Shown: positions 32,139-33,965 of the stretch, in pieces
Numbering within the stretch: position 1 is the stretch's first letter
How the letters are laid out: each line of letters starts with the position of its first letter
Assembly: GCA_004563715.1 (NCBI GenBank)
Contig: SIRX01000019.1
Location: 1 to 33,965, forward strand
Origin: Actinomycetota bacterium
GTDB taxonomy: Bacteria; Actinomycetota; Rubrobacteria; Rubrobacterales; Rubrobacteraceae
DNA: 33,965 nt
Direction of reading: 5' to 3'
Program-made: the position numbers and the translations under genes
Notes under the pieces: model-generated
Databases searched by the model: none
What the model saw: the letters and a program-made list of their open reading frames with translations, nothing else
What the model was told of the DNA's origin: nothing

Positions 32139-32459
32139 CTACGGCGCGTACAGCTCGACCTCGGAGAGCGTGATCAAGCCGCGCTCCAGGACTTCTCTCA
32201 CGCGGGGCAGAGCAGCCTCCACCATCTCCCGGCAGCCCACGGCCTCGACCACCACCGGGAGGTCGGCGTGGAACCGCAGGGGCCGGCCGGAGATCATGCC
32301 GGAAGCCCGGTCGAAGCCCATGATGCCGTGGTGTACGGAGATGTCCTCGATGCCGGCCTCTCGGAATGCTTCGGCGATCAGGGCGTGGGAAGGCCGACCC
32401 CGGAAGCTGGCCGAGTCTCGGAGGTAGACCCTGACCCTCGTCGCCCGGGCGGCGTTCAA
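32139..32459 (-). CDS. DUF190 (PII-like) domain protein, second copy
   Basis: The protein has 106 aa. DUF190 hallmarks: ATRVRVYLRDSASFRGRPSH, then ALIAEAFREAGIEDISVHHG, IMGFDRASGM, LPVVVEAVGCREMVEAALPR and GLITLSEVEL. The fold resembles PII-type signalling trimers (family knowledge), but no ligand is established. The start is TTG 32459, overlapping the previous stop as TTGA. It is last in the four-gene CrcB operon and about 30-35% similar by eye to the neighbouring DUF190 protein, so the two may form mixed trimers. Confidence 0.88.
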   Translation of the reverse strand: MNAARATRVRVYLRDSASFRGRPSHALIAEAFREAGIEDISVHHGIMGFDRASGMISGRPLRFHADLPVVVEAVGCREMVEAALPRVREVLERGLITLSEVELYAP

Positions 32460-32797
32460 TGCTCACCGTCCGGCTCGGGGGGTACGATCTGCTCGGCCTC
32501 CACCTCCGAGGCGATGACGAGCCCGTTCTTGACCGCCCGCCGCAGGAAAGGCAGTAGGCTCCTTATGCGCTCCTCGTCGTCCACGATGTCCACGACGATC
32601 GGCAGGTTCTCCGCCAGGAGCAGGATGCCGGCGGTCGAGATTCCGGCGTGGGGCGCGTAGCCCATAAAGCCTTTGAAGACCGTGGCCCCGGCTATACCGC
32701 GCTCCCGGGCCGCGAGCACTATGGCCTCGAACAGGGGCCGGCCCCGGTAACGTTCGTCCTCCCCGACGAAGACCCGCAACCGGCGAGATCTCTTCAT
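32456..32797 (-). CDS. DUF190 (PII-like) domain protein, first copy
   Basis: The protein has 113 aa. RRLRVFVGEDERYRGRPLFE, AIVLAARERGIAGATVFKG, FMGYAPHAG, NLPIVVDIVDDEERIRSLLP and NGLVIASEVEAEQI give the full DUF190 pattern. The family is very often encoded beside crcB fluoride channel genes, where a regulatory or fluoride-sensing role has been suggested but not proved. The ATG lies 3 bp after the CrcB stop and the gene overlaps the next DUF190 gene by 4 bp. Confidence 0.92.
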   Translation of the reverse strand: MKRSRRLRVFVGEDERYRGRPLFEAIVLAARERGIAGATVFKGFMGYAPHAGISTAGILLLAENLPIVVDIVDDEERIRSLLPFLRRAVKNGLVIASEVEAEQIVPPEPDGEH

Positions 32798-32800
32798 CCG

Positions 32801-33169
32801 TTAGAACCTCGCTCCCAGGTAGATGCCGAGAAAGAGGGCCGGAAGCCCCAGGGCGACGCTGCCGAGGACGTTGAAGAACGAGCGGTTGTACTCCCGGGCC
32901 AGGACCAGGTTCAGGGTCTCCAGCATCAGCGTCGAAAAGGTGGTGAACCCGGCGAGCAGCCCGCTGCCCAGGATCAGGAACAGGGCTCTCTCCTGGGGGG
33001 CGGCGCCTTCGAGAAGCCCGAGCCCGAAGCAGCCCAGAATGTTGACCACGAGCGTGCCCCAGGGAAAAGCAGCCCCCGCCCGGTGGCTGACCCAGCCCCC
33101 GATTACGAACCGCAAGACCGCTCCCGTACCCGCCCCGACGAGCGTGAGCATATACTCGATCGCTACCAC
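32801..33169 (-). CDS. crcB: Fluoride channel CrcB/Fluc, single-domain subunit
   Basis: With GTG 33169 the protein is 122 aa, with four membrane segments. Fluc landmarks are GAGTGAVLRFVIGG (Arg of the first helix), FPWGTLVVNILGCFGLGLLE (the conserved Asn and pore region) and GLLAGFTTFSTLMLE (Phe-lined pathway, TTFS). Fluc proteins are dual-topology or paired channels that export fluoride. GGAGGG 8 nt before GTG 33169 supports this start; ATG 33151 is an alternative. It overlaps the fused CrcB gene upstream by 7 bp, so the two are probably made together as a heterodimer. Confidence 0.92.
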   Translation of the reverse strand: MVAIEYMLTLVGAGTGAVLRFVIGGWVSHRAGAAFPWGTLVVNILGCFGLGLLEGAAPQERALFLILGSGLLAGFTTFSTLMLETLNLVLAREYNRSFFNVLGSVALGLPALFLGIYLGARF

Positions 33170-33852
33170 CTCAAAACCCTCCGCGTGAACCGGATACCCA
33201 GGTAGGCGGCGGCGAGGCCGAGCATCAGGCTTCCGCCGGCGTAGAACGTCCCCAGGACCGGTGAGACGCTCCAGGTCTCGCTCGTCTGGAGGGCGTAGTT
33301 GCTGAACGTGGTGAACGAGCCCAGAAAGCCCAGCACCCAGAACATCCTCTCGCGCTCCTCCACGAACCTCTCGAAGAGCAGGGTTCCGAAGATGGCTATC
33401 CCGAAAGAGCCCAGGACGTTCACGGTCATCGTTCCCCAGGGAAACGCGCCCGCCCCGGTGGAAGCCGCCACCGTCTCCAACAGGATCCTGGCCCCAGCTC
33501 CCAGGGCGCCGCCGGCGAAGACCCATGCCAGGTGTCTCGGTTCCACCCTGAAAGGCTTGGGACGGTGCGCGCCGCCGCGCAGAAAGTCGGCGGGGGCCGC
33601 GTGCAGCACCTCCTCGCGCATCACCGAGACGGGTGCGTCGGGAACCGTGTTCAGAAGCTCGGGTATGAACTCTTCGAGCCGGTGCGCCTCGTCTACAACC
33701 ATCACGAAGAAGCTGTAGCCGCCGTCCTCCGGCCCCCGGTAGGCCGTCGCGGTTGCTATGCCGCCCCGGTGGGCGGCGCGCACGGCCCGCTCGCACTCCA
33801 GCTCCGAGCGCAGCCGCAACGTGGCCTGCGCCACCGTAACAGCGGTGTTCAT
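33163..33852 (-). CDS. DUF190-like domain fused to a CrcB/Fluc channel subunit
   Basis: A 229-aa protein. The C-terminal 120 residues are a complete Fluc subunit: FAGGALGAGARILLE, FPWGTMTVNVLGSFGIAIFG and GFLGSFTTFSNYALQ. The N-terminal 95 residues are soluble and look like a shortened DUF190 domain: RAAHRGGIATATAYRG aligns with the AARERGIAGATVFKG region of the neighbouring DUF190 protein, and VMVVDEAHRLEEFIPELLNT with its VDIVDDEERIRSLLPFLRR. The fusion is a reading by eye. The ATG at 33852 lies in the stop codon of an IS630 transposase (ATGA), so the first residues may be encoded by the element's end. No ribosome-binding site is evident; GTG 33894 is a less likely start. Confidence 0.8.
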   Translation of the reverse strand: MNTAVTVAQATLRLRSELECERAVRAAHRGGIATATAYRGPEDGGYSFFVMVVDEAHRLEEFIPELLNTVPDAPVSVMREEVLHAAPADFLRGGAHRPKPFRVEPRHLAWVFAGGALGAGARILLETVAASTGAGAFPWGTMTVNVLGSFGIAIFGTLLFERFVEERERMFWVLGFLGSFTTFSNYALQTSETWSVSPVLGTFYAGGSLMLGLAAAYLGIRFTRRVLRW

Positions 33853-33965
33853 GAAGGTTGGCCCGCTGACCCATAGCCGCAGTGTGCGAACCACCCGTGG
33901 GCGTCCTGAGGTGTGACGGCAGAGAGTGCTTCGCCCATCGCCTCCACCAGGGCCTCCCGTGTGCG
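33849..33965 (-). mobile_element. IS630-family transposase, C-terminal fragment at the window edge
   Basis: The last 38 codons of a minus-strand frame run in from the right edge. The peptide TREALVEAMGEALSAVTPQD, followed by AHGWFAHCGYGSAGQPS and a stop, is the usual end of IS630-type DDE transposases (a REELVEAI..AL..VT..DARGWF.HCGY pattern). The rest of the element lies outside the window. IS630 elements insert at TA, so the inverted repeat and target TA should lie within tens of bases below 33849, inside the fused CrcB gene. Whether the element is whole or a remnant cannot be seen. Confidence 0.75.

Follow-up and report, generated by a model that had tools for sequence, protein, structure and literature searches.

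DUF190 is a widespread protein family of uncharacterized function whose tie to the fluoride channel CrcB (Fluc) has so far come from gene neighborhood. A gene near the end of a contig from a member of the Rubrobacteraceae raises the question of whether the two are also joined covalently, and what a DUF190-like domain would do at a fluoride channel. The window analyzed here is the whole of that contig (C15; 33,965 nucleotides). Its preliminary description held that an open reading frame encodes a complete Fluc subunit preceded by 95 residues having the order and spacing of the DUF190 helix-strand pattern, and that such a protein would be direct evidence for an action of DUF190 on CrcB.

The fusion gene and its recurrence

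The open reading frame was found on the minus strand at 33163-33852, encoding 229 amino acids from an ATG at 33852 to a stop codon at 33163-33165. The C-terminal part (33166-33540, minus strand), delimited by Pfam, AlphaFold2, and alignments, is indeed a complete Fluc/CrcB domain with four predicted transmembrane helices, hereafter CrcB1; its Pfam CRCB match (E 2.2e-19) is above the cut-off and spans positions 2-103 of the 103 in the profile. Pfam, hhalign, AlphaFold2, and Foldseek together place a PII-like N-terminal domain (N-domain) at residues ~6-83 (33604-33837, minus strand), and the alignments define residues ~84-104 (33541-33603, minus strand) as a linker of ~20 residues with a conserved P-x-x-F-L-x-G-x-x-x-R-x-x-P-F type motif, of which residues 94-104 had low pLDDT in the AlphaFold2 model. 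The N-domain is thus shorter than the 95 residues first assigned to it, while its relation to DUF190, discussed below, was upheld.

Three genes follow on the same strand. The first encodes a partner Fluc subunit, CrcB2 (32801-33151; Pfam CRCB, 4.3e-23), and the others encode two stand-alone PII-like proteins, DUF190a (32456-32797; PF02641, 111 bits, 2.6e-32) and DUF190b (32139-32459; PF02641, 78 bits, 6.9e-22), in agreement with the earlier placement of stand-alone DUF190 genes two and three genes downstream of the fusion.

The in-frame fusion was present in 6 of 39 Rubrobacteraceae genomes in seven copies (two in G000 and one each in G004, G008, G019, G021, and G025), and each fusion locus had the same content and order: fusion, CrcB2, DUF190a, DUF190b. 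The carriers, among them Rubrobacter sp. MGR_bin143 and an unclassified Actinobacteria bacterium, are soil bacteria related to Rubrobacter. The fusion is no accident, given this recurrence in frame, and a chance open reading frame or an extension confined to one genome was rejected on the grounds of conservation. Contig C97 of the genome from which the window comes carries another, diverged operon whose domains are the same and in the same order; there, DUF190a and DUF190b are a single polypeptide, which suggests that the two proteins work 1:1.

The N-domain itself was found in nine copies in seven genomes, at 46-64% identity to the window domain, and seven of these are in frame with CrcB. The seventh genome, G010, has a frame-broken copy on contig C43 (L043 1977-2717), the break falling between the N-domain and CrcB. 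The single CrcB on C43 looks chimeric, its first helix resembling CrcB1 and the remainder CrcB2, and the broken frame and the chimera may represent either real decay or an assembly error. Contig C39 of the same genome has an isolated N-domain without CrcB (L044 2121-2645), probably the remnant of a fusion gene, lying inside a riboswitch-dense island. A search for the N-domain in 396 genomes of the same phylum gave no further convincing match; among the weak matches, one coincides in part with a canonical DUF190 gene, and the rest are short, unexplained, and without CrcB.

The fluoride riboswitch and a probable IS630-type insertion

A fluoride riboswitch (RF01734) scoring above the gathering threshold lies directly upstream of the fusion at L038, L040, L042, and L043, and none was found upstream of the fusion at L007, L039, or L041. 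The window also had no RF01734 match, because the contig ends in an insertion element upstream of the fusion gene. The right end of this IS630-type element, consisting of the transposase C-terminus and the terminal repeat (33840-33965, minus strand), abuts the fusion gene at its 5' end, and the frame of the gene is open upstream to the contig end inside the element. The source genome has a single RF01734 match, close to the end of contig C173, and the last 122 bases of that contig (L179 2683-2804) belong to the left end of an IS630-type element. The flanks on C173 and in the window have the three bases TTA in common, and across them the frame continues into ...GLTVAQATLRL, as in the relatives; the transposase C-terminus at the window end resembles that of a full copy of a related element on C96. 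Flank, frame, and riboswitch all favor the interpretation that the two contig ends are probably the two sides of one IS630-type element inserted into the fusion gene at its 5' end, a pairing we infer rather than assert, since other ends of the element occur in the genome (left ends on C160 and C59 and a right end on C160).

The element thereby probably separates the body of the fusion gene from its riboswitch and original start. The first residues, MNTA, come from the IS630-type terminal repeat and not from the original gene. Because the ATG at 33852 lies in that repeat and overlaps the transposase stop, expression of the window copy may be low or coupled, and the copy may be impaired. At another fusion locus, that of G019, an open reading frame with IS630-type transposase helix-turn-helix domains interrupts DUF190b (L040 501-1708).

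The island on contig C39 of G010 (L177 and L178, 2396-20684) had six fluoride riboswitch matches in ~18 kb, five of them above the gathering score, making it an unusually dense fluoride-responsive island. Its genes, as assigned by eye, include a hydrogenase-4/formate-hydrogenlyase-like operon, an MFS transporter, and two genes for MutS-like ATPases.

The channel subunits and the role of the N-terminal domain

CrcB1, when aligned to the solved Fluc structure 5A40 and in the other alignments, retained the GAxxR motif, the FPWGTxxVN motif with its conserved Asn, and the TTFS motif of TM3. Lys/Arg residues of CrcB1 number 6-9 on the N-terminus, loop 2, and the C-terminus and 0-3 on loops 1 and 3 in each of the seven in-frame operons, while CrcB2 shows the reverse bias (0-2 versus 4-5; 7/7 operons). 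An opposite charge bias is the pattern of heterodimeric Fluc twins of opposite orientation (PMC3755343). On the basis of this placement of Arg and Lys, CrcB1 is predicted to be N-in and CrcB2 N-out, the two forming a heterodimeric Fluc, and the fused N-domain is predicted to reside in the cytoplasm.

The first of the two pore Phe residues (F80 and F83 in Ec2) is kept in all CrcB1 and CrcB2 proteins. At the second position, CrcB1 has Tyr or Leu in five of the seven operons and Phe otherwise, and all seven CrcB2 proteins have Leu. Known heterodimers also vary at this position, and one working pore has been suggested for other heterodimers (PMC5636608); the residues found here would be compatible with one working pore. 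Channel activity is nonetheless not certain, since the second Phe is replaced in CrcB2 and in most CrcB1 proteins and Tyr was non-functional at either pore Phe position in Ec2 (PMC5636608).

All nine N-domain homologues matched Pfam DUF190 (best E 1.9e-5). The window protein scored 15.9 bits as a whole and 19.8 bits for the domain alone, which is below the gathering threshold of 23.4, and the N-domain is therefore DUF190-like without formal membership in DUF190 (PF02641). Comparison by hhalign of the N-domain profile with the DUF190 proteins of the same operons gave a probability of 95.6% and a score of 50, whereas 200 column-shuffled profiles reached at best a score of 20 and a probability of 5.6%, and the reversed profile scored 9; the relation is beyond chance. 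DUF190a is the nearer relative (95.8%, versus 15% for DUF190b). A PDB sequence search with the N-domain profile returned insignificant matches only, the DUF190 protein 2DCL among them (E 1.2).

An AlphaFold2 model based on the nine-sequence alignment (pLDDT 87.9, pTM 0.76) consisted of strand 6-14, helix 17-29, strands 34-42 and 45-55, helix 56-69, and strand 75-81, the beta-alpha-beta-beta-alpha-beta ferredoxin-like fold of the PII superfamily as seen in DUF190, CutA1, SbtB, and PII structures. The top Foldseek match in the PDB was again 2DCL (E 4.1e-6, TM 0.64, 23% identity), followed by 1O51 (also DUF190), CutA1, SbtB, and PII. The order of the elements is thus that of DUF190, as the preliminary description had noted, but the spacing is not. 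Alignment to DUF190 showed gaps of 6 and 16 residues, corresponding to a beta1-alpha1 loop ~6 residues shorter and a beta2-beta3 connection ~16 residues shorter, so that the N-domain is ~22 residues shorter in all and has a short beta2-beta3 turn in the model. The 16-column gap is the T-loop with its GxxG motif, which is absent from the N-domain.

The N-domain is a T-loop-less PII-superfamily domain, either derived from or sister to DUF190. Since the T-loop is lacking, it cannot itself work as GlnK does, and its role may be one of docking or structure instead of sensing. PII-like proteins form trimers, as established for PII, CutA, and SbtB, and the operon encodes exactly two PII-like chains besides the fused domain. 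The reading we favor, to which we would give about an even chance, is that the N-domain serves as a docking site that holds DUF190a and DUF190b against the cytoplasmic mouth of a heterodimeric Fluc. The fusion would be the cytoplasm-facing (N-in) subunit, with CrcB2 as its N-out partner, and the fused domain, the descendant of a DUF190-type protein after loss of the T-loop, would act as a covalently attached docking subunit. Each channel would then have one PII-like trimer, made of its single fused domain together with DUF190a and DUF190b, a stoichiometry that the tandem DUF190a-b protein of C97 fits, and the T-loops of DUF190a and DUF190b could modulate fluoride exit on ligand binding, much as GlnK acts on AmtB. 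In its fullest form, the proposal is of a ligand-gated channel, in which the N-domain, DUF190a, and DUF190b form a 1:1:1 heterotrimer tethered to one heterodimeric Fluc and a small-molecule signal controls fluoride exit beyond transcription; this form we put forward tentatively and as more doubtful than docking itself.

Loss of the T-loop and the glycine motif could also indicate a degenerate PII-like domain without a signaling role, which fixes CrcB1 in the N-in orientation and stabilizes the heterodimer. The charge pattern already requires CrcB1 to be N-in, consistent with such a role. We consider this reading possible but rather unlikely, in that 16 invariant columns remain in the domain, and DUF190a and DUF190b are retained in the operon wherever the fusion occurs. 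The N-domain moreover appears constrained to a degree similar to the channel part, with uncorrected pN/pS of 0.41-0.88 and 0.28-0.63, respectively, although these values are a rough sign of constraint, as synonymous sites are near saturation.

The N-domain might instead be a ligand sensor in its own right, for example a CutA-like one for metals or metal-fluoride complexes, gating the channel directly. The Foldseek matches to CutA1 and to the nucleotide-binding SbtB, and a Cys (C20) invariant in 9/9 N-domains, would be in keeping with a sensor. The identity in the fold matches to CutA and SbtB was, however, 8-18% as compared with 23-25% to the DUF190 structures 2DCL and 1O51, and Pfam gave no CutA match. 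The nucleotide site of PII normally involves the T-loop, which the N-domain is missing, and we regard a sensor of this kind as improbable. That the N-domain is an unrelated ferredoxin-like domain with a mere resemblance to DUF190 is more improbable still: the ferredoxin-like fold is common and the window protein falls short of the Pfam cut-off, but DUF190 was matched by 9/9 homologues and was the top Foldseek match, the profile comparison was far above the shuffles, and the operon context points to DUF190 as well. The contig ends just upstream and the frame lacks an upstream stop, which might suggest that the region before crcB is an artefact of annotation or extends the frame by chance; this can be dismissed given the nine conserved copies, seven of them in frame with CrcB, and the confidently predicted fold.

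Docking of DUF190a and DUF190b by the fused domain thus remains our preferred reading. The claim that the fusion directly demonstrates an action of DUF190 on CrcB is supported in part, as far as a physical and evolutionary link, which is well supported by the fusion, the riboswitches, and the neighborhood of CrcB and DUF190 genes; regulation of the channel, and any ligand, are what we infer.

DUF190 and CrcB in other lineages and in known systems

CrcB and DUF190 are encoded by adjacent separate genes in other phyla. By hand count, 17 of the 20 best DUF190 matches in a 297-genome sample of another phylum were ≤100 bases from a CrcB match, and plasmids of Chroococcidiopsis, Ideonella, Streptomyces, Deinococcus, and Methylocystis have crcB and DUF190 genes that directly adjoin or share a few bases. 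No in-frame DUF190-CrcB fusion outside the Rubrobacteraceae was found among the matches listed for the CrcB-DUF190 order in 396 genomes of the same phylum or for the DUF190-CrcB order in the 297-genome sample; these searches used artificial joined profiles, each order in one sample, and may miss rare fusions. Long open frames resembling fusions in G079, G277, G396, G397, and G398 proved to hold neighboring genes that are out of frame with one another or divided by a stop. Three PII-like chains per operon are not universal, some operons having one CrcB with either one DUF190 or two. The association of CrcB and DUF190 is common but not exclusive, because a DUF190 gene of Phenylobacterium lies amid metal-efflux genes without CrcB. 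Among the papers we searched for a link between DUF190 and CrcB, none was relevant.

A conserved covalent fusion in riboswitch-bearing operons turns the action of DUF190 at Fluc into a hypothesis that is concrete and testable, and the fusion is a natural construct for studies of structure and flux. Were PII-like proteins to gate Fluc, the efflux of fluoride would be regulated and not a passive leak under transcriptional control alone.

Multi-domain DUF190 proteins occur elsewhere. A plasmid of Mycobacterium branderi encodes a three-domain DUF190 protein of 359 amino acids, adjoining enolase (L103 2147-3226), that looks like a single-chain PII-like trimer. On plasmid pLIS41 of Listeria innocua, the gene for a two-domain DUF190 protein stands side by side with two crcB genes and a gene for enolase (L104 2117-4769), an arrangement that looks like a fluoride-resistance cassette with DUF190. 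Both resemble the fusion operon in having several PII-like domains per locus and fluoride-related neighbors, and differ in that their DUF190 domains are joined to each other and not to CrcB.

With DUF190/COG1993 proteins (PF02641; 2DCL, which is PH1503, and 1O51, which is TM0021), the N-domain shares the order of strands and helices, core sequence from helix 1 to strand 2 and from strand 3 to helix 2, and an operon with CrcB, but its T-loop is deleted, its score is below the Pfam cut-off, and it is fused to a membrane channel. CrcB1 and CrcB2 have in common with Fluc/CrcB proteins (PF02537; 5A40 and 5A43), including heterodimeric La1/La2, a full-length match, the key motifs, and tandem genes with opposite charge bias (PMC3755343). 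They differ in that one subunit has an N-terminal soluble domain and in the residue at the second pore Phe position (Leu in CrcB2; Phe, Tyr, or Leu in CrcB1). Precedent for a PII-family protein acting on a channel or transporter comes from GlnK-AmtB and SbtB-SbtA (PMC8395244). Those systems consist of separate proteins, whereas in the fusion described here one PII-like domain, lacking the T-loop, is covalently attached to the channel.
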